Source: an uncultured Woeseiaceae bacterium | GTDB taxonomy: Bacteria > Pseudomonadota > Gammaproteobacteria > Steroidobacterales > Woeseiaceae | Reading direction: 5' to 3' | DNA: 37,860 nt | NCBI GenBank assembly: GCA_947259145.1 | Contig: CAMYLB010000309.1 | Span: 1-37,860 of the forward strand | In this document: one piece after another, positions 1,918-36,661 of the stretch | How the letters are laid out: each line of letters starts with the position of its first letter | Numbering within the stretch: position 1 is the stretch's first letter | The notes under the pieces: model-generated | Seen by the model: the letters and a program-made list of their open reading frames with translations, nothing else | What the model was told of the DNA's origin: nothing | Databases searched by the model: none | Program-made: the position numbers and the translations under genes

Positions 1918-2847
1918 CTAGTCTTCGAGCCAGTCCATGCGGCTGCGCAGGTCCGCGCCGACTTTCTCGATCGGATGGTCGAGATCGGCCTGCATCCTGC
2001 GTTTGAACTCGGGCATGCCATTTTGGCTCTCGGCGATCCAGTTCTTGGCAAAAGTGCCGTCCTGGATTTCGTTGAGGATATCTTTCATCGCTGCACGTGA
2101 TGACTCGTCAACGACTCGAGGCCCGCTGACCATGTCCCCCCAGGCCGCCGTGTCGCTGATGAACTTGTGCATCTTCCTGAGGCCGCCTTCATGCAGTAAA
2201 TCGACGATCAGCTTGAGCTCGTGCATGACCTCATAGAACTCGGTGGCGCCGCCACAAAGTACAGCCTGTTCGCCGAACAGGTCCGTTTCGGTTTCCTCGG
2301 CAAAGGTCGTCTCGATCACGCCGGCTCTTGCGCCGCCAATACCGGCCGAATAGGCCAGGGCGATTTTGAGTGCGTCGCCGCTTGCATCCTGGTGTACGGC
2401 GACAAGGCAGGGAACGCCGTGGCCTTCTTCATATTGCCGACGCACCAAACCGCCAGGCCCCTTGGGGGCAATCAACGCAACATTCAGGTCGCTGCGCGCT
2501 TCGATCTGTTTGTAGTGAATGGCAAACCCGTGCGCGAACATCAATGTGGCGCCATTGTCGATGTCGTCCACAACGGACTCATAAAGTGACTTCTGAACCA
2601 TATCCGGCGTGAGGAACATGACGATCTTTGCATTCTTGACCGCATCGTTCGGCTCCATGACCACCAGTCCGTCAGCCTCCGCCTTGGCCCAGCTTGCGCC
2701 GCTCTTGCGCAGGCCCACGACGACATTGAAGCCGCTGTCCTTGAGATTCAGGGCGTGCGCGCGACCCTGGCTGCCGAAGCCCAGTAGGGTGATCTGGCTT
2801 TCTGCCAGGCAGGAAATATCGACGTCTGATTCCGAGTACATTTGCAT
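1918..2847 (-). CDS. ilvC: Ketol-acid reductoisomerase (class I) with an internal in-frame deletion
   Basis: IlvC converts 2-acetolactate or 2-aceto-2-hydroxybutyrate to the dihydroxy acids of valine, leucine and isoleucine synthesis, using NADPH and Mg2+. The NADPH fold ([17 protein letters not shown]), the [16 protein letters not shown] segment, and the Mg ligands in [12 protein letters not shown] and [15 protein letters not shown] are all visible. The protein is 309 residues against about 330-340 in class I enzymes. Between GGATE and FYEVMHELK about 19 residues are missing, corresponding to the family stretch that reads roughly LVKAGFETLVEAGY.PEMAY. Both carboxylates of E..xHE survive, but a core helix of the knotted domain is lost. 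Start ATG at 2847 has GAGGA upstream. Identity is certain; activity of the product as written is doubtful. Confidence 0.93.
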
Positions 2848-2877
2848 GGGTGTTCCTCAGCCTGATGCAATTTTCAT

Positions 2878-2913
2878 AAAAAAAACCCCACTATCCATTT
2901 GGATGCGGGGTTT
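2878..2913 (-). terminator. Attenuator-like rho-independent terminator in the ilvC leader
   Basis: Read on the minus strand, AAACCCC pairs with GGGGTTT and an inner ATCC pairs with GGAT around a short AT-rich loop. Eight consecutive U residues follow. The hairpin ends about 30 nt before the ilvC start and lies downstream of a promoter and a short ORF. This is the arrangement of transcription attenuators of amino acid operons. A second GC-rich hairpin-forming segment (GCCCTCC..GGGAGGC) lies just upstream and could serve as an alternative pairing partner. Confidence 0.75.
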
Positions 2914-2937
2914 ACGTGTCCGTACGCTGGATACGCG

Positions 2938-3018
2938 CTACCCGCTGTGCCTCCCAAGGAGGGCAAGTCGCGATACGCGCAGACTAAAAGCCTGTGAGTT
3001 GTGTTGCGATCCAGTCAT
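2938..3018 (-). CDS. Candidate 26-residue leader peptide of the ilvC-leuA-leuC operon
   Basis: A minus-strand ORF of 26 codons lies between the promoter and the attenuator hairpin. Its distal part reads SLRVSRLALLGRHSG, enriched in leucine (four) with one valine; these are the amino acids made by the operon. The predicted transcription start (about 3020) lies only a couple of bases before the ATG at 3018, so translation would be leaderless or nearly so. This is too short for the ORF track. Position and composition support an attenuation leader, but there is no long run of regulatory codons, so I hold it as a candidate only. Confidence 0.45.
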   Translation of the reverse strand: MTGSQHNSQAFSLRVSRLALLGRHSG

Positions 3019-3026
3019 AGCGCCGA

Positions 3027-3602: not shown

Positions 3603-4382
3603 ATGAATCGGTGCATTAGCAGCAGTCGGCGCATTACCGCAGCGTTATTCGCTACAGCGGTGATCTTGCTTTCCGGCAGCGTATTCGCCCAGTCCGTCAA
3701 TCAGGTATTGCAGGCTGATCAACGCAGATTGAACCTTGCGCAACAATCGCAGGAGCGTATCAACAAAATTGTTCAAGGTACTCGTTCCCTCGAGGACCAG
3801 TACAGGTCCATTAACAAGGAAATCGACGGACTCAAGGTCTACAACCGGCTGATGCGGGCCCAGGTTGAAGGGCAGTCGGCCGTTCTGGAAGACATCGGAT
3901 TGTCGATGGACCAGGTTGACGTCATTAACCGCCAGATCTTTCCCCTGATGGAACGCATGATCGACGGACTCGACCAGTCCGTGAAGCTCGACATTCCGTT
4001 CCTGATGGACGAGCGCAACAAGCGCATTGCGGGTCTGCAAGGCATCATGGAGCGCTCCGACGTCAGCGTCGCCGAGAAATTCCGCAAGGTGATGGAGGCG
4101 TACCAGATCGAAAATGACTATGGCACGACCATTGAGAATTACACCCAGTCTTTGACCATCGACGATGCCACGCGCTCGTTCAACATGCTTCGCGTCGGTC
4201 GCATCGGGCTCTACTTCCAGTCTGACGACACCAAGATTACGGGTCGTTGGGACAATGAAGCGCGTAGCTGGGTCGTAGATGACTCCGCGCGAAACGAAGT
4301 GCGCAAAGGTCTGCGGGTGGCCAGACAATTAATTGCACCGGAACTCATCATTGTTCCCGTTCCAGCTGCGGAGGCTAATTAA
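3603..4382 (+). CDS. DUF3450 family periplasmic protein of the TonB2/TtpC locus
   Basis: This 259-residue protein has a signal peptide ending near GSVFA|Q (about residue 29). A long helical coiled-coil region (about 35-105) is rich in Q, R, E and L. The mixed C-terminal half contains the conserved RVGRIGLYFQSDD..GRWD type segment of the DUF3450 family. It is the first gene of an operon that continues with TtpC-like, ExbB, ExbD, ExbD, TonB and TPR genes. The same family stands first in the tonB2 clusters of Vibrio. Its molecular role is not established; location and coiled coil suggest it interacts with the energising complex in the periplasm. AAGGAG sits 5-6 bases before the ATG. Its stop codon directly abuts the next ATG. 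Confidence 0.85.
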   Translation: MNRCISSSRRITAALFATAVILLSGSVFAQSVNQVLQADQRRLNLAQQSQERINKIVQGTRSLEDQYRSINKEIDGLKVYNRLMRAQVEGQSAVLEDIGLSMDQVDVINRQIFPLMERMIDGLDQSVKLDIPFLMDERNKRIAGLQGIMERSDVSVAEKFRKVMEAYQIENDYGTTIENYTQSLTIDDATRSFNMLRVGRIGLYFQSDDTKITGRWDNEARSWVVDDSARNEVRKGLRVARQLIAPELIIVPVPAAEAN

Positions 4383-5750
4383 ATGAAACGTATTACACTC
4401 ATTATTGCCGTCGGACTGCTGAGTCTGGGTTTTGTTGGCACGGCCAACGCACAGGACGACAGTGCTCGCAGCATGGCTGAGCTCTTGCGTCTGATCGAGC
4501 AGGGACAGGCACGCGACTCGCAGGAAGCGCGCAAACGTGAAGCTGCCTTCGCACAGAACAAGAACCAGCAGCAGTCGCTGCTGAACCAGGCACGTGCGGA
4601 GCGAACTCGTGAAGAACAAACGAGCGCCAGCCTTGAAGCGAGTTTCGAGAAGAATCAGCAGCAGATAATCACGGCTAGACAGGCCCTCGACGAGCGCCTG
4701 GGCGCCCTGAAAGAGCTGTTTGGCGTGTTGCAGACCGTGTCTGGTGATGCGCAGGGTCGATTCAGCGCTTCCCTGACCAACATTGAATTCCCGGATCGTT
4801 CGGCGTTTCTCTTTGAGCTCGGCGCCAAGATGGCCGGGGCCAGCAGCCTGGCCTCGATTGCGGACATCGAGACTTTGTGGGGAATGCTGCAGAAGGAAAT
4901 TGTCGAGACCGGCAAGGTTACTCGCTTCAATCACCTCGTCACGAAAGCCGATGGCCAGCAGGAAGAAATGGAAGTCGTTCGAGTTGGCGCCTTCAATATT
5001 GTTTCTGAGAACGGCTACCTGGAATATGACTCGGGCGAGAAGTCGATCGCCGAGCTGCTGCGTCAGCCTGAAGGTCGTTATGCCTCTACGGCGGGTGACC
5101 TGATGGATGCCGATGGCGGCGCTGTCGATTTCGGTATCGATGTCACCAAGGGTGGCATCCTCGGATTGCTCGTGGAATCGCCGACCGTTAAGGATCGCAT
5201 CGAGCAGGGCGGCATTGTCGGTTACTGCATTATTGCGCTCGGTATCATCGGGTTGATTATCGCAATACTGCGCTTTTTGGCACTGTCCAACGCCAGCCGC
5301 AAGGTTACTGCGCAGCTGAAGCGGGACACGGCAAGCGCCGACAACCCGCTGGGTCGCGTACTGGCTGCTTACGAAAGTAACAGGGGTGCCGATACCGAAA
5401 CCGTCGAGCTGAAACTTAGCGAGGCGGCTTTGAAGGAGATGCCGGACCTCACCAAGGGGCTGCTCTTCATCAAGGTGGTTGCGGCTGTCGCACCGCTCAT
5501 GGGTCTGCTGGGTACGGTTACCGGTATGATCAAGACCTTCCAGGTGATCACACTTTACGGTGCTGGTGATCCGAAGATGATGGCCGGCGGTATCTCACAG
5601 GCATTGATGACAACGGTACTCGGACTTGTCGTAGCAATTCCCATGGTCTTGCTGCACACGGTCGTCAGTGGTCAGAGCCGCAAGATTGTCAACATTCTTC
5701 AGTCTCAGAGCGCTGGCCTCGTGGCACAGCACTCCGAACGGAATGGCTAG
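4383..5750 (+). CDS. TtpC-like long MotA/TolQ/ExbB family proton channel protein
   Basis: At 455 residues this is twice the size of ordinary ExbB. A signal peptide (to TANA|Q, about residue 23) is followed by a periplasmic coiled coil (about 30-105) and a mixed domain to about 265. The ExbB-like channel module then has three membrane helices: IVGYCIIALGIIGLIIAIL (about 273-295), the hallmark APLMGLLGTVTGMIKTFQ (about 365-382), and GISQALMTTVLGLVVAIPMV (about 405-424). This architecture is that of TtpC, the extra subunit needed by Vibrio TonB2 systems, inferred to link the proton channel to the periplasm. The gene starts at the base following the DUF3450 stop and has GGAGG upstream. It probably works with the smaller ExbB encoded next. 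Confidence 0.88.
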   Translation: MKRITLIIAVGLLSLGFVGTANAQDDSARSMAELLRLIEQGQARDSQEARKREAAFAQNKNQQQSLLNQARAERTREEQTSASLEASFEKNQQQIITARQALDERLGALKELFGVLQTVSGDAQGRFSASLTNIEFPDRSAFLFELGAKMAGASSLASIADIETLWGMLQKEIVETGKVTRFNHLVTKADGQQEEMEVVRVGAFNIVSENGYLEYDSGEKSIAELLRQPEGRYASTAGDLMDADGGAVDFGIDVTKGGILGLLVESPTVKDRIEQGGIVGYCIIALGIIGLIIAILRFLALSNASRKVTAQLKRDTASADNPLGRVLAAYESNRGADTETVELKLSEAALKEMPDLTKGLLFIKVVAAVAPLMGLLGTVTGMIKTFQVITLYGAGDPKMMAGGISQALMTTVLGLVVAIPMVLLHTVVSGQSRKIVNILQSQSAGLVAQHSERNG

Positions 5751-5767
5751 AGCCGAAAGGAGTCGCC

Positions 5768-6295
5768 ATGCTTTGGCTTGCTGACAGTTTCGAAGCCATA
5801 CGAGATTTCATGAGTCTGGGTGGCCCCGTACTCCGGGTCATCGCAGTGACCATCTTCCTGATGTGGGTCGTCATCGTCGAGCGGATCATGTTCTTTCGCA
5901 CATCGATGGGCAAAATGTCACGCGAGATTTATGACAATTGGGAATCGCGGCCGGAACGTAAGTCCTGGAATGCGAAACAGATCCGGGAGTTGATGATCTC
6001 GCGATTCAGCGAAGCAACGAATCAGGGTATCAACCTGATTCAGACGCTCGTCGCACTTTGTCCCTTGCTCGGCCTTCTCGGCACGGTAACGGGCATGATC
6101 AGTGTGTTCCAGGTCATGGCGGTCTCCGGCTCGGGTAACGTCCGTGCGATGGCGGCCGGCGTATCTCAGGCCACGGTACCGACCATGGCAGGGATGGTCG
6201 GGGCGCTTTCGGGCGTCCTCCTGGTCACTCTTTTATCCCGCCGCGCCGCCCGTGAAGTCGAATTCCTTGAGGATTCGCTCACGATGGATCACTAG
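5768..6295 (+). CDS. exbB: ExbB-type proton channel subunit of TonB system
   Basis: The 175-residue size is that of ExbB2-type proteins. There are three membrane helices: VLRVIAVTIFLMWVVIVERI (about 18-37), the signature CPLLGLLGTVTGMISVFQVM (about 97-116), and QATVPTMAGMVGALSGVLLV (about 135-154). ExbB pentamers with ExbD convert the inner-membrane proton gradient into movement of TonB, powering outer-membrane receptors. AAGGAG lies upstream with ideal spacing, 17 bp after the TtpC-like gene. The short cytoplasmic N-terminus separates it from the long paralogue encoded just before. TolQ is the main alternative, but the neighbours (TonB, not TolA/TolB) decide for ExbB. Confidence 0.92.
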   Translation: MLWLADSFEAIRDFMSLGGPVLRVIAVTIFLMWVVIVERIMFFRTSMGKMSREIYDNWESRPERKSWNAKQIRELMISRFSEATNQGINLIQTLVALCPLLGLLGTVTGMISVFQVMAVSGSGNVRAMAAGVSQATVPTMAGMVGALSGVLLVTLLSRRAAREVEFLEDSLTMDH

Positions 6296-6307
6296 GGGAC
6301 AGTCGCC

Positions 6308-6718
6308 ATGCGAAAACATCTGGATGATATCCATGTCGACGAGGATGAGAATGAAATCAACCTGACGCCGATGCTGGACGTCGTATTTATTATGCTCATT
6401 TTCTTCATTGTTACGGCGTCATTCATTAAGGAATCAGGAATCGATGTCAACCGGCCTGATGCTCCAGTAACTGAGTCCACGCCGGAAGAAGCGAACATCC
6501 TTGTAGTGATCAGTTCCAACGATGAAATTTTTATCGACAGGCGCCTGATCGATCCGCGTGCAGTCCGTGCGAACATTGAAAGGCTGCATGCAGAGAACCC
6601 GAAAGGATCGGTGGTGATCCAAGCTGATAACAAGTCATCGAATAAAGTACTTGTGGAGGTAATGGATTCCTCCCGAAGCGCCGGGGTTTACAACATTTCG
6701 ATCGCCGACAAACGATAG
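6308..6718 (+). CDS. exbD: ExbD-type stator subunit, first copy
   Basis: The 136-residue ExbD/TolR family protein has a short charged cytoplasmic N-terminus, one membrane helix (about 21-41) and a periplasmic domain. The helix holds the proton-carrying aspartate in LTPMLDVVFIMLIFFIV. The periplasmic domain includes ANILVVISSNDEIFIDRR and AENPKGSVVIQAD, which match the ExbD fold. It lies 12 bp after exbB. A close relative follows directly, so the operon encodes two ExbD proteins. Both keep the key aspartate. With ExbB it transmits proton flow to TonB. Confidence 0.93.
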   Translation: MRKHLDDIHVDEDENEINLTPMLDVVFIMLIFFIVTASFIKESGIDVNRPDAPVTESTPEEANILVVISSNDEIFIDRRLIDPRAVRANIERLHAENPKGSVVIQADNKSSNKVLVEVMDSSRSAGVYNISIADKR

Positions 6719-6743
6719 CCCTGCACTCACCAGGACAATAGCA

Positions 6744-7154
6744 ATGCGAAAAAGACAAGGTTCGATTGGTGTCGACGAGGAAGAAAATGAGATAAACCTG
6801 ACGCCGATGCTGGACGTCGTGTTCATCATGCTCATTTTCTTCATTGTGACGGCGACATTTATCAAGGAAGCCGGCATCCAGGTCGAGCGTCCCGACACGA
6901 TAACCGCCGATTCCCAGGACGACGCATCCATACTGATCGCGATCAGTGCGAATGACGAAATCTGGATTGATCGCCAGAAGCGAGACCCGCGCGCGGTTCG
7001 CTCAATCCTCGAGCGTTTGCACGCTGAAAACCCGAAAGGTTCAATCGTCATACAGGCTGATGAAAAATCAACCCACGAGACGCTGGTTATCGTCATGGAA
7101 GCGGCGAAGGGTGCGGGCGTGACTAACGTAGCCATCGCATCCGATGACGGCTAG
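6744..7154 (+). CDS. exbD: ExbD-type stator subunit, second tandem copy
   Basis: This is also 136 residues and clearly a tandem duplicate of the preceding gene. The block INLTPMLDVVFIMLIFFIVT is identical, and RLHAENPKGS is shared. The periplasmic halves have diverged (for example NDEIWIDRQKRDPRAVRS against NDEIFIDRRLIDPRAVRA in the first copy). The membrane aspartate is kept. It lies 25 bp downstream of copy one and 84 bp upstream of tonB. Known ExbB/ExbD complexes contain two ExbD chains in one ExbB pentamer, so a heterodimer of the two copies is a natural inference, though not proven. Confidence 0.93.
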   Translation: MRKRQGSIGVDEEENEINLTPMLDVVFIMLIFFIVTATFIKEAGIQVERPDTITADSQDDASILIAISANDEIWIDRQKRDPRAVRSILERLHAENPKGSIVIQADEKSTHETLVIVMEAAKGAGVTNVAIASDDG

Positions 7155-7238
7155 GAACAACGGCGCAGGAAGTTTGTCGAATTACAGTGGAGTTGTCGGC
7201 GACATACACCGGCAATTCCCGTTGAGGAGAACCGGACC

Positions 7239-7844
7239 ATGATAGGTCGTTATGTATTTTCAATAGTGATCGGCACGATCGTTACGCTGAGCCTGCTGTT
7301 CGTCATGCAGTTACTCATCGTTACGGGTAAGACCGCGCTGACAGATCCTCGCGAACGCCACAAACTTGAGTTCGTCCGCGTAAAGCGCAATGAGAACCTG
7401 AATATCGCGGACCTGACTCCGGAAAAGCCGCCGAAACCACCCGAGACGCCGCCTGAGACCCCACCTCAGGAGCTGGACAACATCAATCCGGACGCACCGA
7501 CCATCAATGTTGCAGCGCCCACAGTTTCGGCGGACACGAGTATCGGTGGCCCCGGCGGCATGAATATCGCTGAAGGCGACTATCTGCCGATCGTACGCGT
7601 AGCACCGGTTTATCCGGCGCGCGCCCTGTCGAGGGGTCTCGAGGGATTCGTCGACTTGTCATTTACTGTCACAACCGCGGGGACAGTCAGAGACCCGATT
7701 GTTCTTCAATCGTCCAGCAGCCTGTTTGAGCGTGCGGCGATTCGTGCCGTGCTCAAGTTCAAATACAAGCCACGCGTAGTCGACGGCGTTCCGGTTGATG
7801 TGCCGGGCGTAAAGACACGAATTTCATTCCAGCTTGAGGAATAA
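7239..7844 (+). CDS. tonB: TonB family energy transducer (TonB2 type)
   Basis: The 201-residue protein has one N-terminal membrane helix (about 5-28, FSIVIGTIVTLSLLFVMQLL). A short proline-rich spacer PEKPPKPPETPPETPPQ lies at about 63-80, and a C-terminal TonB domain at about 110-201. The domain contains VAPVYPARALSRGLEGFVDL and RAAIRAVLKFKYKPR, typical of the receptor-contacting fold. The spacer is much shorter than in E. coli TonB, as in TonB2 proteins, which may be why such systems carry extra periplasmic partners (DUF3450, TtpC, TPR). GAGGAGA precedes the ATG. No TonB-dependent receptor gene is in the window, so the substrate cannot be named. Confidence 0.93.
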   Translation: MIGRYVFSIVIGTIVTLSLLFVMQLLIVTGKTALTDPRERHKLEFVRVKRNENLNIADLTPEKPPKPPETPPETPPQELDNINPDAPTINVAAPTVSADTSIGGPGGMNIAEGDYLPIVRVAPVYPARALSRGLEGFVDLSFTVTTAGTVRDPIVLQSSSSLFERAAIRAVLKFKYKPRVVDGVPVDVPGVKTRISFQLEE

Positions 7845-7896
7845 CGCCTGCTACTTGCCAGGGCGGAAAAAGTTATTCAAGAGGATCTTTTTTGAC

Positions 7897-9249
7897 ATGA
7901 ATATGAATCGCGAAATTTCTCTGAAGCTATGCCTTGCGTTAGTCGTCGGCGTACTTGCTTTCGGTAGTGCCGGGGCGCAAAAAGCTACCGACGAAGACAG
8001 AGATAAAACCAAGACCAAGCAGGCGCAGGCCGTTAGCAAGGAAGTGTATGAGCGTATCCAGAAAGCTCAGGAAATGGTTGATGCGAAGAACTACAACGGG
8101 GCGCTAAAATCCCTGAACAACCTATACAATCCTGACAAGCTTACCGAGTATGAACAGGCCAATGTGCTGAACTACATTGGCTTTGTTTATTACAACATGG
8201 ACGACACCAAAAACGCGATTCGTACTTATGAAAAGATGCTCGCGATCCCGACATTAGAGCCGCAGCAAGCAAAACAAACAACGTTTACGATGGCGCAGTT
8301 GTTGACGATGGAAGAGCAGTATGGAAAGGCGCTCACTACGCTGGATAAATGGTTCGTGCTTGAGACGAACCCGGCGCCGGAGCCATTCATTCTGCGGGCA
8401 CAGATCCTCTATAACCTCGAGCGTTACAAAGAAATGGTATCGCCGATAGAAAACGCGATGCGTGTCGCGAAGGAACGTGACAAGCCGCCGAAGGAGAATT
8501 GGTACGGCTTGCTGAACTTTGCGTATTTCCAGCAGGAAAATTACGAGAAGGTCCGCGATATACAAATTATTTTGTTGGAAAACTGGCCAAAAGCGCGCTA
8601 CTGGAAGTCACTTGCCGGTGCGTTTACGGAACTCGGCCAGGATGAGAAGCTGATTTACGCCTACGATGCAGCGCACACGCAGGGCATGCTGGAAAAGGAC
8701 ACCGAATTCGTGACCATGGCGCAGCTTTATCTGCAAGCGGAAGTACCCTACAAAGCGGCAACGCTGCTGGAAGAGAAGATGAACGCCGGCATCGTCCCGA
8801 AAAGCGAGAAGAACTATCGTCTCCTGTCACAGTCATGGATGTTGGCCCAGGAAGATAAAAAGGCCATTCCGGCGCTGCAGGCGGCCGCAAAACTTGCGAC
8901 GCACGGCGAACTTAATCAAAGGCTCGCCAACACGTACCTGAATATCGGTAACTACTCGGAGTGTACTAAATCCGCAAACGATGCAATTCGAAAAGGCGGC
9001 CTCAAGAACCCCGACAATATGCAGATTTCACTGGGCATGTGCCTGTACAACCTGCGTCGCTATTCGGACGCCAAAGCGGCGTTTAGAAAAGCGTCTGAGA
9101 CGCCACGCTCTGTACGCACAGCAGATCAGTGGATAAGGGTTATCGATGCGGACGTAGAGCGAAATCGACAGATCAAGCTCGCCGAAGAAGCTGCCCGCAA
9201 GAAACGCCAGGAACTGGACGCGAAGAAAGCCAAAGCCCTGCGCGTCTGA
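7897..9249 (+). CDS. Periplasmic tetratricopeptide-repeat protein of the TonB2 locus
   Basis: I start at the ATG at 7897, after AAGAGGA. This gives a signal peptide ending around GSAGA|Q and a protein of 450 residues. The earlier ORF start overlaps tonB and adds a charged non-signal stretch. The mature part is built of helical repeats with TPR character, such as ALKSLNNLYNPDKL, NVLNYIGFVYYNMDDTKNAI and NLRRYSDAKAAFRKA. It has a lysine/alanine-rich end (AARKKRQELDAKKAKALRV). A TPR protein ends the tonB2 cluster of Vibrio in the same position. Role inferred: a periplasmic scaffold for the energising complex. The ORF is followed by a strong hairpin, so it is the last gene of the operon. Confidence 0.87.
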   Translation: MNMNREISLKLCLALVVGVLAFGSAGAQKATDEDRDKTKTKQAQAVSKEVYERIQKAQEMVDAKNYNGALKSLNNLYNPDKLTEYEQANVLNYIGFVYYNMDDTKNAIRTYEKMLAIPTLEPQQAKQTTFTMAQLLTMEEQYGKALTTLDKWFVLETNPAPEPFILRAQILYNLERYKEMVSPIENAMRVAKERDKPPKENWYGLLNFAYFQQENYEKVRDIQIILLENWPKARYWKSLAGAFTELGQDEKLIYAYDAAHTQGMLEKDTEFVTMAQLYLQAEVPYKAATLLEEKMNAGIVPKSEKNYRLLSQSWMLAQEDKKAIPALQAAAKLATHGELNQRLANTYLNIGNYSECTKSANDAIRKGGLKNPDNMQISLGMCLYNLRRYSDAKAAFRKASETPRSVRTADQWIRVIDADVERNRQIKLAEEAARKKRQELDAKKAKALRV

Positions 9250-9676: not shown

Positions 9677-9778
9677 GGAGCGACAAACAGCCTCCATTAT
9701 CGTGCGCCGGCAATGCTCCTTATGCAGACAACATTGTCCCCTCTATGAGCAGCGCGCTCTTACGATGCTTCAGCACGG

Positions 9779-11541: not shown

Positions 11542-12483
11542 CTAGTCCAGCGCGTCCGTCAATTCCGGGACGATGCTGAACAGGTCACCGACGAGTCCGA
11601 TATCCGACACTTCAAAGATGGGAGCTTCCTCGTCTTTGTTGATCGCGACGATCGTGCCCGCATCCTTGATACCGGTAATGTGCTGAATTGCCCCTGAGAT
11701 ACCGATAGCGATGTACAGGTCCGGCGCAATGATCTGACCGGTTTGTCCAACCTGGGTTTCCGGCGGCACATAACCGGCATCGACAGCGGCCCGGGACGAG
11801 CCGATCGCCGCGCCGAGTTTGTCGGCTAACTTGTAAATCAGCGCAAACTTCTCTTCGCTGCCTAGCGCGCGACCGCCGGAGACTACCTTGGCGGCGGCCT
11901 GCAGGTCCGGACGATCGGACTGGCCGGTCTGCACCTCGATAAACCGGGTGTGCGTCGGCAACTCGGCGTCAATATTTGTGTTTTCGATCGTGGCGCTGTT
12001 GCCGCCGTCAGCAGCCGGGTACGAAGCGGTTCGAACCGTCGCCACCACCACGCTATCTGCCGGCGCCTCGACCGTCACAATCGCATTACCGGCGTAGATC
12101 GGGCGTTTGAAGCGTTGCGGCCCTTCGACACTCATAATGTCGCTGATCTGGTTGACGCCGAGCAAGGCAGCGACCCGTGGCATGACGTCTTTCCCGAAGG
12201 CCGTCGACGGACCGAATACATGGCTGTAGGAAGACGCCAACGCGGCTATTTGCGGTGCAAGAAGCGCCGCAATAGCAGGATCATTCTCTTCGCGTTCGAC
12301 TGTAAGAACGCGACCGACACCGCTTATTTGCGCCGCTTCAGCTGCCACGGCAGAAGCTGAGGCTGCAAAAACGACAACATCGATCTCTGCGCCTTCAACC
12401 TGTTTCGCACAGGCGACGCACTTGGCCGTGCTTGGATTCAGTGCTGCGCCATTATGCTCAGCAATTACGAGTACTTTCGACAT
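11542..12483 (-). CDS. etfA: Electron transfer flavoprotein alpha subunit
   Basis: EtfA carries the redox-active FAD of the ETF heterodimer, which collects electrons from acyl-CoA dehydrogenases for the membrane ETF:quinone oxidoreductase. Length is about 313 residues, normal. The C-terminal FAD domain shows KVVSGGRALGSEEKF, SSRAAVDAGYVPPETQVGQT and ISGAIQHITGIKD. The N-terminus MSKVLVIAEHNG is family-typical. I start at the ATG 12483, which overlaps the etfB stop (TGATG); a GTG three bases upstream is also possible. Gene order etfB-etfA is the usual operon. It converges on the peroxiredoxin gene with a 19-bp gap. Confidence 0.96.
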   Translation of the reverse strand: MSKVLVIAEHNGAALNPSTAKCVACAKQVEGAEIDVVVFAASASAVAAEAAQISGVGRVLTVEREENDPAIAALLAPQIAALASSYSHVFGPSTAFGKDVMPRVAALLGVNQISDIMSVEGPQRFKRPIYAGNAIVTVEAPADSVVVATVRTASYPAADGGNSATIENTNIDAELPTHTRFIEVQTGQSDRPDLQAAAKVVSGGRALGSEEKFALIYKLADKLGAAIGSSRAAVDAGYVPPETQVGQTGQIIAPDLYIAIGISGAIQHITGIKDAGTIVAINKDEEAPIFEVSDIGLVGDLFSIVPELTDALD

Positions 12484-14805: not shown

Positions 14806-14834
14806 TCGGGATCCGCAATCTCCGTGCGGACCCG

Positions 14835-16137: not shown

Positions 16138-17338
16138 ATGGAACAGCAAATCCCCACCAGCGAGACCCTGAAAGGCGTACGTTACGAGATTCGCGGCCAG
16201 CTCGCGCATCAGGCGCTCGAACTGGAGAAACGTGGTTACGAAATTATCTCTCTTAACATTGGCAACCCCGGCCTGTTTGGTTTTCGCACACCGGAAACCA
16301 TGCGTCTCGCGATGATCGAAAACCTCGGCCAGGCCGAACCCTACTGCCATCAAGGCACGCGAAGCCGTTGTCATGCAGCAGCAGAATCGCGGAATCAGCG
16401 GGGTCACCGCAGACGAGGTTTTCATCGGCAATGGCGTCAGCGAACTCATCGATCTGTCCTTGCGTGCTTTGCTTAACCCGGGCGACGAAGTCCTGGTACC
16501 CAGCCCGGACTACCCCTTGTGGAGTGCGGCAGTGGCGTTGAACGGCGGCGTGGTTCGGCACTACTCCTGCAGCACGGACAAGGGATTCCTGCCCGACGTC
16601 GCCGATATCGAAAGTCTAATAAATGGCAAAACCAAGGCAATTGTTGTTATCAATCCGAACAATCCCAGCGGTGCGGTTTACGATGAAAAGACCCTCACTG
16701 GCATAGTCGAGTTGGCGGAACGGCACAAGCTGGTCCTGATGGCCGACGAAATCTACGACCAGATGGTCTATGACGATGCCGAGTTCATCCCGATGGCAAC
16801 GCTGGCAAGCAACGCCGTTTGCCTGACATTTTCAGGTTTGTCGAAGGTTTATCGCGCCTGCGGCTACCGTGTCGGTTGGTGTGTCTTCAGCGGCGAGCTC
16901 GATCGGGCCGAAGAATATATTCACAGCATGGAGTTGCTTTCGGCGCTGCGCCTGTGCAGCAATGTGCCGGGACAGTGGGCCGTGCAGACAGCGCTCGGGG
17001 GCTTCCAGAGCATCCGCGAGCTGGTAGCGCCGGGCGGCCGCTTGTATCAGTCAAGGCAGGCGGTTATTGACCGGGTTGGGGAAAGTCGATTCCTGACCGC
17101 GCAGCGGCCAATGGGTGCCATGTATGCCTTTATTCGGCTTGACCCCCGGTTTAGCGGGCGCTTCGATGATCAGGCCTTTGCGCTCGAACTGCTGGAAAGC
17201 CATCACGTACTCGTTGCGCCGGGAAGCAGTTTCAATACGCCATACACCGATCACTTCCGCATCACGACACTGCCCGATACCGAGACGATCAACATCGTTT
17301 TCGATCGCATCGAGACCTGTCTGGAGCAGCACACCTGA
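16138..17338 (+). pseudogene. AlaA-like pyridoxal-phosphate aminotransferase, frameshifted by a small deletion
   Basis: Two ORF pieces in different frames together make one class I/II aminotransferase closest to alanine aminotransferase AlaA. The first piece starts at ATG 16138 and runs through ISLNIGNPGLFGFRTPETM to AEPYCHQ. The second resumes with AREAVVMQQQNRGISGV, then GNGVSELIDLSLRALL, NPNNPSGAVYD, ADEIYDQMVYDDAEF and the PLP lysine in FSGLSKVYRACGYRVGW. At the join (about 16347-16358) homologues read CHQKGI.. then AREA; about 14 bp are missing, which fits the observed frame change. All catalytic elements remain. Such enzymes make alanine from pyruvate and glutamate. A sequencing or assembly error is as likely as true loss. 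Confidence 0.85.
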
Positions 17339-19930: not shown

Positions 19931-22900
19931 CCCACACCTTCTAGAGGATGACCTGCGGGCGCGAACAGATGCGCTGGATATATCGCGTTCTTTCATCGTG
20001 CAGGCGCCCGCGGGGTCCGGCAAAACCGAACTCCTGATTCAGCGCTACTTGAAGCTACTTGCCGCCGTCGATAATCCCGAGGAAGTGCTGGCCATTACAT
20101 TTACGCGCAAGGCAGCCGCTGAAATGCAGTTTCGCGTTTTGGCTGCCCTGCAAGTTGCGCAGCTCGGCGAAGAACCAGCGGAGGACCATCAGAAGCTGAC
20201 CAAAGCGCTGGCGGTGGCGGCGTTGCAGCATGATCGCGAGCATGGGTGGCAGTTGCTCGTGAACCCGCGACGTATGCGGATTCAGACACTGGATTCACTC
20301 AATGCACTGATCGCGCGATTGCGGCCCATCAGTTCGCCTGAAGGTGCGAGCGGCGCGCGGATCGTTACCGACGCCGAACTCAGTTCCTTGTATCGTGCCG
20401 CCGCACTGGCGACGCTGGACTGGCTTGCGGAAAGCGGGCCGATGAACTCGGCAACGCGCGAAGTCCTGATACACGTCGACAACAATACGCAGGTTTATGT
20501 TTCCTACCTGGTGCAGATGCTGCGTACGAGGGACCAGTGGTTGCCTTTTATTGGCAGCGGGCTGCTCACAGGGCACGAAGCCGATGCGCTCAGGCAACGA
20601 TTTGAGCAAGACCTCGAAACATCCGTGACGGAACATCTGCAGCGTACGGCGTCGGCATTTGAAACTGCCGTCGGCACTGCACTGTCCGAGCTACAGGGCT
20701 ATGCCGCAGCGAACTTGCGGGACGGTGGCTCAATGGCGGATCCGATTTGTGCGCTGCACGAGCAGATAGGATCACCAGCAGCGCATTCGAGCAATATTCC
20801 AGAGTGGCAGGGTCTCGCCGAGTTGTTGCTGACGAGGACAGGCCAGTTTCGGAAAAAAGTTGATAAGCGCCAGGGCTTTCCACCCGGCGACGGTGGACAA
20901 AAGGCGGCGATGCATGCCTTGCTGGAAGAACTGGCGGAGCAGGAAGAATTCGCGGAGTTGCTTGATGGGGTCCGTGGGTTGCCACCGGTGCAGTACAGCG
21001 ATGAACAGTGGCAGGTACTTCTCGCGCTATTTCGTTTATTACCGCTGGCGGTTACCGAACTTAAGCGTTTATTCACGGAACTAGGTGTTGCCGATCACAC
21101 CGAGATCGCTTTGACAGCAGGGGTGGCGCTTGGCACCGCGGAAAACCCCGGGGATGTTGCGTTGCTGCTCGATTACCAGGTGCGTCATCTACTGGTCGAC
21201 GAAATGCAGGATACCTCGAGTGCGCAATATCAAATGCTCGAGGCCTTGACGGGCGGCTGGGAGCAGGGCGATGGCCGCACTTTGTATTGTGTCGGCGACC
21301 CCATGCAGTCTATCTATCGGTTCCGCAATGCCGAGGTTGGTCAGTTTCTGCTCGCGAAAAAATACGGCATCGGAAATGTGACACTCACATCGCTCCTGTT
21401 ACGCAGAAATTTTCGCTCCGGCCAATTCCTGGTCGACTGGTTCAACACGGTGTTCCCGGAAATTCTCGCGCCGCGAGACGACCCGTCAAGCGGAGCCGTA
21501 TCGTATTCCGAAGCAGTCAGCGTCCCGCATTTGGCGGGAGCAGGCCGTTGTTACGTCCATCCGGTGTTCGGCAGCAGCGTCGAGCAGGAAGCGAAACTCG
21601 GCTGCAAGGTGATTTCTGAGACGCTGACTCAACACGCCGAAGACGAGATAGTCGTTCTCGTGCGCGGGCGCACACAGCTACCAAACCTGCTGGCCCAACT
21701 TCGAAAAGAGGGTATCGGCTATCGCGCAATAGAAATCGATCGCCTTACCGACTTGCCGGAAGTCATCGAAGTGCTCGCGCTCACTCGCGCGGCAGTGCAT
21801 CAGGGGGACCGTCTTGCCTGGCTCGCGATCCTGCGTGCGCCGTGGATAGGCCTGGACTGGACCGATCTGCATGCCCTGCGTACCACGTGCTGGCCACTCT
21901 GGTGGCGCCAAGACGGCTGCAGGGACTCAGGCAGCTCATTGAGGTTGCCTGGATGACGCTCGGCGGGCCGGCGATCCTCGCCGACGACTATGCCGTCAGC
22001 AACGTCTATCGATATTTTGACGTTCTCGAAAAGCATGAACGCTGCGGGTCGCTGACGGACGTGGCAGAGCTCGAGTCGATGCTCGATCTCGAACGAGTGT
22101 CCAGTGACGTAAACGCACGGCTGCAGGTCATGACAATGCACCGGGCCAAAGGTCTCGAGTTTGAGCACGTATTGTTGTACGGACTTGGGCGTTTGCCGGG
22201 TAGTGGCAATCGCAGGGTGCTGTCGTGGTTTGATGTGCCGGGGGAGCACGGCGCCGCAAGAAAGGTGATCAGCCCGGTTGGTCCCCGCAACGAACTCAGC
22301 ACCGACCCGGTGCATCGCTTCATCGAACTGAGTGAGGCCGGGAAAGACCGACACGAGCAAGCGCGATTGCTGTACGTGGCCTGCACCCGCGCGCGCAAAT
22401 CATTACATCTGATCGGACACACAACGGTTACTCCAGACAGTTCGGCTTTCAAACCGCCCGCCAAGCGAAGTCTGTTGCACCTCTTGTGGCCTGCACTCGA
22501 GCCACAATATTCGAGCGCATTTGTCGACCATGTTCCTGAGGATTCCCTTGACGACGACGTCTGGATGAGTCCGGTATTACGCCGGTTCAAAACGAACTGG
22601 ACGCTGCCGCCTGTCGCATCATTGCCGGGGTCACCCGCTGGTGTCGATCTGAGTACCGTGGATGAAGAGGTCGAGTTCTACTGGGTGGGAACAGAAGCAC
22701 GCATTGCCGGTACGATTGTGCACCGTTGGCTGTATCTGTTCGCCGCAAACCGCGCGACACCGAATCCGGAGTTGCTATCCGACTACAGACCCGTAACGCG
22801 CCGATGGCTGAAAGAGATGGGTGTTGGTGAGGTCATGATCGAAACCATCACCGAGCGGGTTGAAGGCGCCTTGCGAAGCACGCTGACCGATGCGAAAGGC

Positions 22901-23203
22901 CAGTGGATCGCCAGCGGCGACGGGCATGCCGAAATGGCGTTAACGGGAGTGTATGAGGGCAAGATAGAGTCCATCGTTCTCGATCGCGTTCGGATCGACA
23001 GTGATGGCGTGCACTGGATTATTGACTACAAAACAAGCTCACATGAAGGCGGTAATCTGGCGGGTTTCCTTCGGGCAGAAACGGATCGCTACAGACCGCA
23101 GCTAAGAAAATACGCGGCGATTTACACAGCCTATGCAGGCACTGAGGCGCGCTGCGCATTGTATTTCCCGCTGCTGCAGACTTTCGTCGAGGTCGAGGTA
23201 TAG
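19923..23203 (+). pseudogene. AddA-like UvrD-family helicase/exonuclease, frameshifted by an internal deletion
   Basis: Two overlapping ORFs in different frames form one UvrD-type helicase with a C-terminal nuclease. Frame one (ATG 19923) has Walker A APAGSGKTELLIQRYLKLL, AITFTRKAAAEM, the Walker B-like LLVDEMQDTSSAQYQML and VGDPMQSIYRFRNAEV, and ends after GLDWTDLHALRTT. The second frame resumes near LQGLRQLIEVAWMTLGGPA. It then has motif V MTMHRAKGLEFEHV, motif VI ARLLYVACTRARKSLHL, and the nuclease elements GTIVHRWLYLF and WIIDYKTSSHEGG. The join lies at about 21880-21925, and tens of residues expected between these segments are missing. Partner of the AddB-like protein upstream. Every motif needed for activity is retained on one side or the other of the break. 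Confidence 0.85.
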
Positions 23204-25709: not shown

Positions 25710-26650
25710 TAGATGGTTCCCAGGCTGCGGCTTATCGGAATTACGTCAGGACTATTTGGGTCCCGATGTAACACAGTGAACAAAGTTATCCGAACCGTAT
25801 CAATCTGGACGACAGCCTTCAATTGAAAATAACTGGTCGTTTCCGAGATCCACTGTTGCATTCCCTCGGCGACCAGCGGCGCGAACACCCCGGCATAGTC
25901 TACGAAACCGCCATCCTCGCGCAAAGCAATAAGCCCCTCGGCGTCGGCTTCGCGGACATTCGGACCGAGTGATTGCAGCACAGCCAGCGATGCCGTATTT
26001 ACGTTGATCGGCGTTCGCTCTGGCAAGGCCGTCACGTGCGGCAGCAGAATCTCGTAGCTTTCGCGGTCCATGCCGTCGAGGGCTGCGAGTTCTGTGACGT
26101 TAGCAATGCGTTGATTGGCCGTGCGATAGGCCGGTGTTAACGCGGAATAAAGCGGATCCTCGGCTCCATCAGGAATGCCCTCGGTCTGATCTGCATCGAG
26201 CCAGTCGGCCGTTACGCCTGCCAGCCGCGGGTCGAGGCCCAGGGCAGCCAGCAATCGCTCGAACTGTTCGAAGGATGGCTTATCAATCTCACCATTACCA
26301 TCCAGCAGATTATTGATATTGAATCGGCCCTGCAGATCCTCGATCTTGCCATAGATTTCGCCCTGGACCGCCTGGGCTTCGATGGGCAGAGCCGGGATCT
26401 CCGTGGCCCAGATTTCTCCCAGGTGATCGGATGTGCTGCCGCTCGCCGTATCGTCCCGCAGGATGGTGCGCACCCAGCCTTCGGAACCAATGGCCACCTG
26501 GATCGCCTGGTCACGGTACAGCATTACCATGGTGCGTCTGACGTCGAGTGCGTTATTCCAGGACAATCCTGCAGCCACAGACCCCGCCAACGCCGTGATC
26601 AGTAGCGCGGTTATCAGCGCTACGCCGCGCCTCTGCAGGACGAGCTTCAC
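25709..26650 (-). CDS. gspK: Type II secretion system minor pseudopilin K
   Basis: The 313-residue protein is the largest minor pseudopilin, capping the pseudopilus tip with GspI and GspJ. Its N-terminus RRGVALITALLITALAGSVA is the GspK variant of the prepilin signal with no Glu at position 5. Later segments GKIEDLQGRFNINNLLD, DWLDADQTEGIPDGAEDPLY and RTPINVNTASLAVLQSLGP are diagnostic. GTG start at 26650 overlaps the gspJ stop (GTGA). It is intact, in contrast to gspJ next to it. Confidence 0.95.
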   Translation of the reverse strand: MKLVLQRRGVALITALLITALAGSVAAGLSWNNALDVRRTMVMLYRDQAIQVAIGSEGWVRTILRDDTASGSTSDHLGEIWATEIPALPIEAQAVQGEIYGKIEDLQGRFNINNLLDGNGEIDKPSFEQFERLLAALGLDPRLAGVTADWLDADQTEGIPDGAEDPLYSALTPAYRTANQRIANVTELAALDGMDRESYEILLPHVTALPERTPINVNTASLAVLQSLGPNVREADAEGLIALREDGGFVDYAGVFAPLVAEGMQQWISETTSYFQLKAVVQIDTVRITLFTVLHRDPNSPDVIPISRSLGTI

Positions 26651-27159
26651 TGTGATACCTCAACGAGCCTGTTGATCTCGCCTTCGTCGGCCAGGGTCAG
26701 GACGATTTCAACTGCGCGTGGCAAACTGGTGTTCGGCCCTCCCTGGCCCGACAGTGGCGGCCATTGGTCAGTCCATTCATCCGGCGGCTGCAGGAAACGG
26801 AATGTCAGGCTTTCGACATCCTCGAGCATGACCGTCGCCAATGGCGTGTTGTTCACCGTTCGGTCGAGGACGTTCCAGTGATAGCGAATCAACTCGCCAT
26901 CTTCGATTCGGTACGCCGTGCGCTGCATCGTGCTGCGCGGCACGCCCGCAGGATTCGGCCAACCGCCGTGGGTCAGTTGCAGGGCGAATTCCGACCCGAA
27001 ACTGGACTGTAGTGCCGGCACCGGTGCGTCGCCGAGTTCGACGCGAACCGGTCGAGGCACGCTTTGCATTAACTCAGTGCTGAGAGCCATCACTCCAAAA
27101 ACAGTGAGCGCGACAAACACTTCAATCAGTGTGAATCCCTTTTGCAGTAGCGGCCTCAA
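26647..27159 (-). CDS. gspJ: Type II secretion system minor pseudopilin J, with an internal in-frame deletion
   Basis: The protein reads QKGFTLIEVFVALTVFGVMAL, a proper prepilin signal, and then continues directly with STELMQSVPRPVRVELGD, GGWPNPAGVPRSTMQR and YHWNVLDRTVNNTPLATVML, all typical of GspJ. In homologues about 35 residues of N-terminal helix and coiled region (down to the ERDL-type segment) lie between these two parts. Here about 33 codons are missing in frame, leaving 170 residues against 195-237. Half the helix that packs in the pseudopilus core is lost. TTG start at 27159 overlaps the gspI stop (TTGA). Deletion real or artefact: see findings. Confidence 0.88.
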   Translation of the reverse strand: MRPLLQKGFTLIEVFVALTVFGVMALSTELMQSVPRPVRVELGDAPVPALQSSFGSEFALQLTHGGWPNPAGVPRSTMQRTAYRIEDGELIRYHWNVLDRTVNNTPLATVMLEDVESLTFRFLQPPDEWTDQWPPLSGQGGPNTSLPRAVEIVLTLADEGEINRLVEVSQ

Positions 27160-27587
27160 CTCGTAGCTCCACTCGAACGTAAGCCGCGGCTCCAGATCTG
27201 GTTGGCCCGGCCGACAGGCATGGGTTCGCCAATGAAACCCGTCACAGTTCGGATGTTGTACTCGCTTCCTGCATGCGATACCGAAACATCGAGGCGGTAA
27301 AACCCTTCGATACCTGTTTCGGAAATTACGGCGCGCCATGACCATTGACTATTGGCATAGTCGACTTCGCCACTGGTTGAACTGACCTCCGGTGTAACAT
27401 TTGCAAGACGCAGTTCTGCGATCTTGTTATGTGCTATCCAACCGGCGTAAGTGCGTTCCCGCATTGAGTTCGCGGCATCGATCATCTGATTCATGCTGGC
27501 CGCGATGGCGGTTAGCGAAAAGGCTACGATCGTGAGCGCTACCATGACCTCGACCAGCGTGAATCCGCGTTGTGTTCTGCAAATCAT
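27156..27587 (-). CDS. gspI: Type II secretion system minor pseudopilin I
   Basis: The 143-residue pseudopilin has prepilin cleavage and helix sequence QRGFTLVEVMVALTIVAFSL. The GspI signature follows: MRERTYAGWIAHNKIAELRL, with W-R and the FYRLDVSVS segment. GspI nucleates the pseudopilus tip with J and K. ATG at 27587 lies 6 bp after the gspH stop. Length is normal. Confidence 0.93.
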   Translation of the reverse strand: MICRTQRGFTLVEVMVALTIVAFSLTAIAASMNQMIDAANSMRERTYAGWIAHNKIAELRLANVTPEVSSTSGEVDYANSQWSWRAVISETGIEGFYRLDVSVSHAGSEYNIRTVTGFIGEPMPVGRANQIWSRGLRSSGATS

Positions 27588-28725: not shown

Positions 28726-29343
28726 ATGGGGTTAGACAAACTCGATCGAAATCCGGAGGCAGCGCCTGGAGCAGGGCGATGGTTGCTGCCGGTCCTCGTC
28801 CTGCTTATTGCCGTTTTGCTTGCGCTGGGGGGCGAAATGACGCGGCAATGGCTGCGGTTCGACCGTGTGGAAATAGATGCGGGGGAGCTCTGGCGCCTGG
28901 TGACCGGTCATTTCGTGCACCTCGGCTGGTCGCATCTTGCGCTGAATGGCGCGGGGCTGGTCCTGGTCTGGTACCTGGTGGGCGACGCTTTTGACCGGCT
29001 TCGGTGGTTTCTGATTGGTGTCTTCACCGTGATCATAATGGACATCGGTCTCTGGATATTCGATCCGATGCTCATGTGGTACGTCGGTTTGTCGGGGCTG
29101 CTACACGGCATTCTCGCCGCAGGACTCATGGAAAAGCTCAGGAAACCCGACAGGGAGGCCCTCATCCTGATGCTGCTACTGCTCGCCAAACTGGCCTGGG
29201 AGCAGTTCAGCGGACCCCTGCCGGGATCCGAGAGCACGGCCGGCGGCACGGTCGTCGTCGATTCACACCTGTTTGGGGCGCTGGGGGGTGTTGTGGCGGC
29301 GATTTTGCTCCGGATTAGAGTCCGGCACACGGCATCTATATAA
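28726..29343 (+). CDS. rrtA: Rhombosortase-type rhomboid intramembrane protease
   Basis: The 205-residue protein is an almost entirely membrane rhomboid. Key motifs are LVTGHFVHLGWSHLALNGAG, the catalytic serine in YVGLSGLLHGIL and the catalytic histidine in DSHLFGALGG. Small size and these motifs match the rhombosortase branch, which recognises GlyGly-CTERM tails. In known organisms rhombosortase substrates are exported by type II secretion and then cleaved and lipid-modified. The gene is divergent from gspG, with about 40-85 bp between starts, which fits a joint role. Another small rhomboid is the alternative. No GlyGly-CTERM protein is encoded in the window. Confidence 0.82.
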   Translation: MGLDKLDRNPEAAPGAGRWLLPVLVLLIAVLLALGGEMTRQWLRFDRVEIDAGELWRLVTGHFVHLGWSHLALNGAGLVLVWYLVGDAFDRLRWFLIGVFTVIIMDIGLWIFDPMLMWYVGLSGLLHGILAAGLMEKLRKPDREALILMLLLLAKLAWEQFSGPLPGSESTAGGTVVVDSHLFGALGGVVAAILLRIRVRHTASI

Positions 29344-29344
29344 T
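29315..29344 (+). promoter_or_regulatory. Candidate promoter upstream of fabD
   Basis: A perfect -10 box TATAAT lies at 29339-29344, overlapping the rrtA stop codon. The -35 side is poor (TTAGAG at 29315 with 18-bp spacing). It would start transcription about 55 bp before the fabD TTG. Plausible as the promoter of the fab genes because plsX and fabH, normally upstream, are absent here. Confidence 0.4.
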
Positions 29345-29404
29345 CCGCGGCACTCGGCCGGAGTGGGCGGCGCGGGTATTAACGACCAGGCAATGGAGAC
29401 GGTT

Positions 29405-30246
29405 TTGACGATCGCAATGGTATTTCCCGGGCAAGGGTCCCAGTCGCTGGGCATGCAGGCCGATCTGGCAAGCGCGTTTCCGGTCGTCCAGGAGACCTAC
29501 GCTGAGGCGAGTGAGATTCTGGGCTACGACCTTTGGCAGCGGGTTCAGGAGGGTCCTGCCGAACGATTGGGCGAAACCGTCGTAACCCAGCCAGCAATGC
29601 TGGCTGCGGGCACGGCCGCCTACCGGGTCTGGCAGGCCGCAGGCGGCTCACGGCCGGCGCAAATGTCGGGGCACAGCCTGGGGGAGTACACGGCGCTCGT
29701 GTGCGCCGGCGCCGTAGGCTTCGCGGATGCAATGCGCGTGGTCAAACGCCGCTCCGAACTCATGCAGGCAGCCGTACCGGTCGGGATCGGTGCGATGGCC
29801 GCGGTACTCGTCAGGTGGTGATCGCTGGACACGCTACGGCGGTCAGCCAGGCCGTCGCCTACGCGAAGGAGCATGGTGCCCGGCGCGCAATCCTGCTCCC
29901 GGTCAGCGTGCCATCACATTCATCCCTGATGCGCGAGGCTGGCCTATCCCTTGCCGAGACCCTTGCCGCAACCGACTTCACGGCGCCCGAGATTACCGTC
30001 ATCAGTGCCGCGACCGCCGAACCTTACTCCGACGCTGCCGACATACGAAACAAGTTGTCTTTGCAGGTATACAGCCCCGTGCTTTGGGTTCGGACTGTCG
30101 AGGCGATGATAGCGGGCGGTGCAACGTCAATCATTGAATGTGGACCGGGCAAAGTCCTGGCGGGACTGGTTCGTCGCATAGACAAGAACACGCCGGTCAG
30201 CTTTATCGATAATAGTGACAGCCTGCAAAAAGCAATGCAGGGCTAA
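29405..30246 (+). pseudogene. fabD: Malonyl-CoA:ACP transacylase, frameshifted by an internal deletion
   Basis: FabD loads malonyl groups onto ACP for fatty acid synthesis. The first frame starts at TTG 29405 (GGAG seven bases upstream), giving MTIAMVFPGQGSQSLGMQ. It includes the active-site GHSLGEYTALVCAGAV and stops soon after GAMAAVLV. The second frame resumes exactly at QVVIAGHATAVSQAV and continues with VPSHSSLM (catalytic histidine) and ECGPGKVLAGLVRRID to 30246. Compared with E. coli FabD, 29 residues between AAVL and QVVIAG are replaced by 2 bases, an 85-bp loss, which matches the observed frame change. The gene is normally essential, so as written it should be lethal unless a second copy exists. 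This argues for an artefact. Confidence 0.92.
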
Positions 30247-31117: not shown

Positions 31118-31124
31118 AGCCCCC

Positions 31125-31258: not shown

Positions 31259-31295
31259 AAAGGAATATTGAGTCTTCTTGGGAGAAGCAACCACT

Positions 31296-31538: not shown

Positions 31539-31620
31539 GCAAGCAGGCGCGGCGTCAATCGTCGCGTCCTCTCTCTTCAGTTCCGAACGACGCTCCTGTC
31601 GTTCAATATCGGACATATCA

Positions 31621-34201: not shown

Positions 34202-35043
34202 GTCACTGGTTTCATGACAGCGAGCCGGCTGACGTCGTTTCAATTGACGACCGGGCGTTCCAGTACGGTGACGGACTGTTCGAGACCGTTGCGATTCGCA
34301 GCGGTGAGCCGCGACTCTGGGATTACCACCTCGACCGCATGACCATGGGTTGCGAGCGGCTGCAGATCGCTCTGCCAGATGTTCGATCATTGCGGCGACA
34401 GCTGGACCACGCTGTTACACAAAGCGGTGACATTCCCGGGTACTGCGCCGCGAAAATTGTTGTTAGCTGCGGCGTTTCAGCGCGCGGTTACGGGCGCGAG
34501 ACTCCGACCTCTGCAAAAACGTACATTGGGGTTTTTGCGACCATGCCAGTCGCCAAAGAACTTTATCGCGATGGGGTTGAAACACTGGTCTGTGACACGC
34601 GACTGGCGTTGTATTCCGCAACCGCCGGCCTCAAGACGCTCAACCGCCTTGAGCAGGTCCTGGCGCGCTCGGAATGCATTGCCCGTTCGGCATTTGAGGG
34701 CATGACCCTGGATGCCAGCGAGCGGCTCATCTGCGGTACCATGAGCAACGTGTTTATCGTTTCAAACCAGACCATCATCACGCCGTCGCTGCATCGATGC
34801 GGTGTCGAGGGCGTCATGCGTCGCCACACGATTGAAACACTGCGCGCTAACGATATCGCTGTCGACATTCAGGACGTCAACGAGGACAAGCTTTATCGCA
34901 GCGATGAAGTCTTCCTGACGAACAGCCAGTTCGGCATCCTGCCCGTACGGCGCTGCGGAGAAAAAGTCTGGCAGCACCACCCGGTGACCAACAAGGTGAT
35001 GGCAATGGTGGCAAAGAACGGCGTTGCCGAGTGTGCGGTATGA
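34198..35043 (+). CDS. pabC: 4-amino-4-deoxychorismate lyase
   Basis: The 281-residue fold-type IV pyridoxal-phosphate enzyme removes pyruvate from aminodeoxychorismate to give p-aminobenzoate. Visible are DDRAFQYGDGLFETVAIRSG, the PLP lysine in GLKTLNRLEQVLARSE, GTMSNVFIVSNQTIITPSL and DEVFLTNSQFGILPVR. The ATG overlaps the pabB stop (ATGA), so the two folate enzymes are made together. A branched-chain or D-amino acid aminotransferase is excluded by context and motifs. Confidence 0.95.
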   Translation: MSHWFHDSEPADVVSIDDRAFQYGDGLFETVAIRSGEPRLWDYHLDRMTMGCERLQIALPDVRSLRRQLDHAVTQSGDIPGYCAAKIVVSCGVSARGYGRETPTSAKTYIGVFATMPVAKELYRDGVETLVCDTRLALYSATAGLKTLNRLEQVLARSECIARSAFEGMTLDASERLICGTMSNVFIVSNQTIITPSLHRCGVEGVMRRHTIETLRANDIAVDIQDVNEDKLYRSDEVFLTNSQFGILPVRRCGEKVWQHHPVTNKVMAMVAKNGVAECAV

Positions 35044-36074
35044 AGCGCATTGCTGTCGGGCTGTCGATAGTTGTCGCGCTGGCGGTGGCATCGCTCGGTG
35101 TCGGCGTTTGGCAGGTGCATCGATTCATGGAGACAGAGTTACCCGTGCCGGAAAACGGAATTCAATTTGAAATTGCCAACGGGAGTTCCTTCAGCGCCGT
35201 TAGCCGACAGCTGGTGGAGAAGGGCGTCATCCAAAGCGACCGCTTGCTGCGGCTGCATGCGCGTTGGAGCGGCGACGCGAGCAACGTGCAAGCCGGCGAC
35301 TACCTGATCATGCCGGGGGCGACGCCGTCATCCCTGTTGCAACAGTTCACGAGCGGCGCCGTGCGCCTGTATTCCTTCACGATCATCGAAGGATGGAATA
35401 ATCGAGACCTGCTTGCGGCTCTGCATGCGGCTGACGCAGTGAAGGCTTCCATGACCGACGAGGACTGGCCCGGACTCCTGTCGGATCTCGGCGCAAACGT
35501 CGTACATCCCGAGGGATTGTTTTTGCCTGAGACCTATCGTTTCCCGCGTAACACGACGGATCGTGAACTACTCGCGCAAGCGTACGCACTGATGCAAACC
35601 GTATTGGAGGAAGAATGGCGTGCTCGTGACGAGGCGGCGCCAGTGAAGACGCCTTACGATGCACTGATATTGGCGTCAATTGTCGAGAAAGAGACGGCGC
35701 GTGCCGATGAGAGACAGCGCATCGCCGGAGTTTTCGCGCGCCGATTGCAGAAGCGCATGCGCCTGCAGACGGACCCAACCGTAATTTATGGTTTGGGGCC
35801 GCAATTCAATGGCAACCTGACGCGGCGCGACCTGCGGACCGATACGCCCTACAACACGTATACGAGGGGAGGGTTGCCGCCCACACCGATCGCGATGCCG
35901 GGACGGGCAGCAATTTACGCGGCACTGAATCCGGCGCCCGGCAAAGCGCTTTTTTTCGTCGCCACGGGTCTGGGTGACGGCAGCCACGCCTTCTCCGCGA
36001 CCAAAGCCGAACACGACGCCGCGGTCGCGGCGTATTTGCGCCGCTTGCGTCAGCAGCGAAAGCAGGGTGGCTAA
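35040..36074 (+). CDS. mltG: Endolytic murein transglycosylase
   Basis: MltG cleaves nascent glycan strands and so sets their length, acting in the periplasm from the inner membrane. The 344-residue protein starts at ATG 35040, overlapping the pabC stop (ATGA). It has one N-terminal membrane helix (about 5-24), a LysM-like region (about 42-100, FEIANGSSFSAVSRQLVEKG) and the catalytic YceG domain. That domain has LFLPETYRFPR, the glutamate in LILASIVEKETA, RMRLQTDPTVIYGLG and YNTYTRGGLPPTPIAMPG. Position between pabC and tmk is canonical. Confidence 0.96.
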   Translation: MKRIAVGLSIVVALAVASLGVGVWQVHRFMETELPVPENGIQFEIANGSSFSAVSRQLVEKGVIQSDRLLRLHARWSGDASNVQAGDYLIMPGATPSSLLQQFTSGAVRLYSFTIIEGWNNRDLLAALHAADAVKASMTDEDWPGLLSDLGANVVHPEGLFLPETYRFPRNTTDRELLAQAYALMQTVLEEEWRARDEAAPVKTPYDALILASIVEKETARADERQRIAGVFARRLQKRMRLQTDPTVIYGLGPQFNGNLTRRDLRTDTPYNTYTRGGLPPTPIAMPGRAAIYAALNPAPGKALFFVATGLGDGSHAFSATKAEHDAAVAAYLRRLRQQRKQGG

Positions 36075-36075
36075 T

Positions 36076-36661
36076 ATGGATCGCGGCAAGTTCATCACGA
36101 TTGAAGGCATCGAAGGCGTCGGCAAGTCGACCAATATCGCAGTGCTGGTCGAGCGTATCGAGGCCGCCGGCAACAAGGTTCTGACGACGAGGGAGCCTGG
36201 TGGGACTCCGCTTGCCGAGGACATTCGTGACATCGTCCAACACCGCAGTGATGAGCCGATACCCGAGATCGCTGAGCTCCTTTTGATTTTTGCGGCGCGC
36301 CATCAGTGACCGATTTACGGACTCCAGCCGCGCCTACCAGGGGGGTGGCCGGGGCATCCCGATGGCAAGCATCGATCTGCTGGCAGACTGGGTGCATGGT
36401 GACGCGTGGCCGGATCTGACGATACTGCTGGATGCGCCGGTCGAAATCGGCATGCAGCGTGCCGGCCATCGCAGCGCGCCGGATCGTTTCGAACAGGAAC
36501 GCCATGATTTCTTTGAGCGGGTTCGCGAGTGCTATTTGCAGTTGGCCAGCCAGGAACCGTCCCGCTTCATCGTCATCGATACAGCGAGAAATCTCGATGC
36601 GGTCAGAGCGGACATCATCACCCTTGCCGACCAGCTCGTTTCTCATGTAATGCATGAATAA
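36076..36661 (+). pseudogene. tmk: Thymidylate kinase, frameshifted by an internal deletion
   Basis: Tmk phosphorylates dTMP to dTDP and is normally essential. Frame one starts at ATG 36076 right after the mltG stop. It shows FITIEGIEGVGKSTNI (P-loop) and TTREPGGTPLAEDIRD, and runs through LLLIFAARHQ to a stop. A second frame resumes at SDRFTDSSRAYQGGGRGIPM (DR motif and LID loop) and runs to 36661. In E. coli Tmk 21 residues lie between AAR and DR; here there are 7 bases, a loss of 56 bp, consistent with the frame change. An ATCAG could have flanked the deleted piece as a direct repeat. All catalytic motifs survive around the break; artefact or very recent mutation likely. Confidence 0.92.

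Follow-up and report, generated by a model that had tools for sequence, protein, structure and literature searches.

Six conserved genes in this stretch of DNA appear to have lost short internal pieces. Judged from sequence comparison, these apparent deletions are very probably scaffold joins, at which gaps were closed without any N being written, and not mutations in the bacterium. In the living organism the genes are most likely intact.

Six losses in the window

The window, meaning the whole stretch of DNA that was analysed, is an entire contig (C309) of 37,860 bp with zero N. It belongs to a metagenome-derived bin of 3.08 Mb in 329 contigs, which is 76% complete and has a contamination of about 3.9% (3.85%). 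Within the genome collection, metagenome bins with a Woeseiaceae label come closest to the window. Two of these, G023 (~87% DNA identity) and G009 (~83%), are colinear with the window across nearly its full length; G024 and G016 are remoter relatives. Colinear gapped DNA alignments were made with JABDOQ010000099.1 and a second contig for G023, and with CAMYIS010000081.1 for G009.

Relative to these genomes the window shows six clean losses, of 57, 14, 97, 99, 85 and 53 bp. At each of the six sites, the absent piece is present in every relative aligned. The junctions are as follows.

2236..2237, minus strand: ilvC (ketol-acid reductoisomerase; open reading frame 1918-2847), 57 bp lost in frame, from alignment and NCBIfam; 0 bp of microhomology
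16351..16357, plus strand: alanine/tyrosine-type aminotransferase (fragments from ~16126 and at 16373-17338), 14 bp lost at ~16353, frameshift
21878..21879, plus strand: addA-like helicase-nuclease (open reading frames 19875-21956 and 21842-23203), 97 bp lost, frameshift
27084..27085, minus strand: gspJ (open reading frame 26647-27345), 99 bp lost in frame, from alignment and NCBIfam
29809..29810, plus strand: fabD (open reading frames 29273-29821 and 29533-30246), 85 bp lost, frameshift
36300..36301, plus strand: tmk (open reading frames 35974-36309 and 36290-36661), 53 bp lost, frameshift

The initial annotation had proposed internal losses in these same six genes, and all six are seen in the alignments to G023 and G009. 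Its size estimates were exact for the losses of 57, 14, 99 and 85 bp. For tmk it gave 56 bp, which is wrong but equal modulo 3 to the measured 53 bp, and the addA-like loss, for which it had offered no size, comes to 97 bp by alignment to the relatives. The alignments also bear out its split of two in-frame losses (ilvC and gspJ) to four frameshifting ones. With NCBIfam models, ilvC and gspJ score above the curated cut-off; fabD, tmk and the addA-like gene are each matched as two fragments below the curated cut-offs, and the aminotransferase matches also fall below theirs. The aminotransferase loss is the least certain among the six, since the alignment to G023 splits it into 3+11 bp, while that to G009 shows a single 14-bp gap. 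The annotation had noticed no matching insertions, and the sole insertion of at least 8 bp in the window relative to G023 is one of 40 bp at position 9711, between genes.

Some other features of the window were noted in passing. To the left of the tmk junction (window 36200-36300), identity to G023 is 67% over 100 bp and dS is ~1.1 upstream, so that this stretch is unusually divergent; it is possibly recombined or derived from another strain. At 14810 lies an intergenic repeat whose copy number differs among the relatives, the window being 15 bp shorter than G023 and 36 bp shorter than G009. Positions 3603-9249 hold a cluster that we take to resemble a duplicated ExbB/ExbD/TonB energising system, together with a DUF3450-like gene and a TPR protein.

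Recurrence across the bin and in a second genome

Similar losses recur across the assembly, regardless of gene function or reading frame. When 552 kb of bin contigs, the window included, were compared with ~1.05 Mb of G023, 180 kb could be aligned. With 20 bp as the lower limit, that length holds 22 clean deletions, ranging from 29 to 99 bp with none above 99 bp; tmk is counted among them, although its flank does not pass the cleanliness filter. Clean insertions at or above the same limit number only three over the 180 kb, an imbalance far beyond chance. Eight of the 22 deletions are divisible by three, which is the chance expectation and agrees with the earlier suggestion that the frame is random, as from chance lengths.

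Almost all of the deletions in the survey fall within G023 open reading frames. The initial annotation had called for a search for like deletions in other genes, and these were found in the same bin in chorismate synthase (aroC), in the glutamate synthase large subunit (gltB, with three separate deletions) and in its small subunit (gltD). PaaZ, PaaA and a PilT-family ATPase are affected as well, in addition to fabD and tmk. The density is ~0.12 per kb, or about one deletion per 8 kb, which by scaling would amount to several hundred in the genome.

A second metagenome bin has losses of its own. The G009 contig CAMYIS010000081.1 (L095/L096, G009:C81), which is named scaffold_1832, lacks 101, 146, 165 and 217 bp within the same 35 kb. 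These losses lie at positions different from those in the window; they are blunt, contain no N, and lie in part in gspG and tmk. Because the same method recovers them, the 99-bp ceiling in the survey is not a detection limit. G023, whose contigs have megahit-style names, has no comparable losses across the window region.

Scaffolding errors in the same assembly

Short N runs interrupt other contigs of this bin, and the relatives allow some of them to be sized. In all four measurable cases the number of N is below the true gap: 17 against 50 bp, 52 against 76 bp, 72 against 94 bp, and 119 against ~339 bp. Gaps of 143, 241 and 41 N have flanks that are not colinear in the relatives and stand outside this comparison. 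In L120 (G000:C4), at 12177-12303, a gap of five N has the identical 61 bases, exactly, on both sides; it is an unmerged overlap. Contig C5 (L121) combines two N gaps with four unmarked deletions in 9.7 kb. At the 3' end of the window itself, the 79 bases at 37782..37860 recur without a mismatch at the beginning of another contig of the bin, C171. This is a non-unique contig end of the sort left by de Bruijn-type assemblers.

The mis-sized N gaps indicate that a scaffolder was at work in this bin. The proposed course of events is that, in assembling short metagenomic reads, the assembler failed to bridge small stretches within genes, and that neighbouring contigs were then linked through read pairs. 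Where the length of a gap was estimated at zero or less, the ends would have been abutted with no N written. With an estimator biased towards low values, some gaps would still be given N, and many of those shorter than 100 bp would come out at zero or less. The estimator's error must be assumed to be noisy, not a fixed offset, because the true sizes overlap: N-marked gaps measure 50-94 bp and unmarked ones 14-99 bp. The assembler was probably of the IDBA-UD type or similar.

Such errors in metagenome-assembled genomes are described in passages of Chen et al. 2020 (PMC7111523). There, IDBA-UD and CLC assemblies are reported to contain N between flanks that in fact overlap, local assembly errors are suspected to be especially prominent in IDBA-UD, and such assemblers are said to retain non-unique sequence at scaffold ends. 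Those cases and the present bin have in common N despite exact overlap and non-unique contig ends, and both concern scaffolded short-read bins with incomplete protein-coding genes at joins. The passages deal with N-marked gaps and unsupported consensus; the N-free joins in this bin would be products of the same process. The feature as such is very probably a known kind of assembly artefact and not a real biological one.

Another technical cause is improbable. Read pairs may have been concatenated minus their inner gap ahead of assembly, gaps may have been filled faultily, or N runs may have been removed in processing, and any of these would likewise give blunt joins, leave the frame random and cap the sizes near 100 bp. 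However, N runs persist in other contigs of the bin, so wholesale removal of N did not take place, and the mis-sized gaps are a sign of scaffolder activity. A mirror error, tandem duplication, was also considered, but none of the seven clean unmarked insertions duplicates its flank.

Junctions, selection and biological alternatives

Joins of the proposed kind need no homology between the joined ends, and junction microhomology is at or below chance. It is absent at 17 of 24 junctions, where 13.2 are expected by chance, and its mean is 0.38 against an expected 0.71. A raised mismatch rate, as from low-coverage ends, was sought at the junctions relative to G023 and was not found; identity near them is slightly above background. 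Perhaps assembly breaks at stretches common to co-occurring strains, and the flank filter contributes to the higher identity.

The damaged genes remain under strong purifying selection both upstream and downstream of the junctions. Omega is 0.06-0.18 on both sides, including downstream of frameshifts (the gspJ upstream segment is unusable), although low omega alone is compatible with a very recent event.

Real decay, in which a lineage sheds genes through many short deletions, is very improbable. In its favour, the contig literally reads as shortened, and the intact copies whose search the initial annotation had advised were not found, as no copy of the missing pieces occurs elsewhere in the bin. 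Pseudogenes of genome reduction likewise arise through short losses that frameshift still recognisable genes. Unlike them, the genes of this bin show no relaxed selection and no repeat-mediated junctions, and the excess of microhomology that slippage or end joining would leave is lacking. Essential genes are not spared: fabD, tmk and aroC are generally considered essential, and all three are hit. Several hundred genes would have to be broken, gltB three times over, and no longer coding insertions accompany the losses in the window.

A mixed population or chimeric molecules, from which the assembler picked deletion variants or amplification chimeras, can be given hardly any credence, even in a metagenome bin with some contamination. 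Dozens of loci have deletions of independent origin that stay below 100 bp and lack junction repeats, and this does not fit segregating alleles. It also makes amplification or library chimeras less likely, as these normally join at short homologies. The annotation had favoured an artefact of assembly, amplification or library preparation. Its assembly reading is upheld by the survey, microhomology, frame, omega and N gaps, while neither decay nor a mixed population, its two alternatives, is supported by the survey, the junctions or omega.

It is barely conceivable that a free-living Woeseiaceae population carries hundreds of very recent, repeat-independent deletions of 14-99 bp in core genes; if true, this would imply an unknown deletion-forming process. 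Read as scaffold joins, the losses are of low importance as biology and serve as a caution for public metagenome bins. Unmarked joins mimic frameshifts and domain losses, and can thereby distort counts of pseudogenes, models of protein families and claims of gene loss. Such bins can be screened without reads by looking for blunt joins, random frame, an upper size limit, low omega to either side of the joins, and mis-sized N gaps within the same bin.
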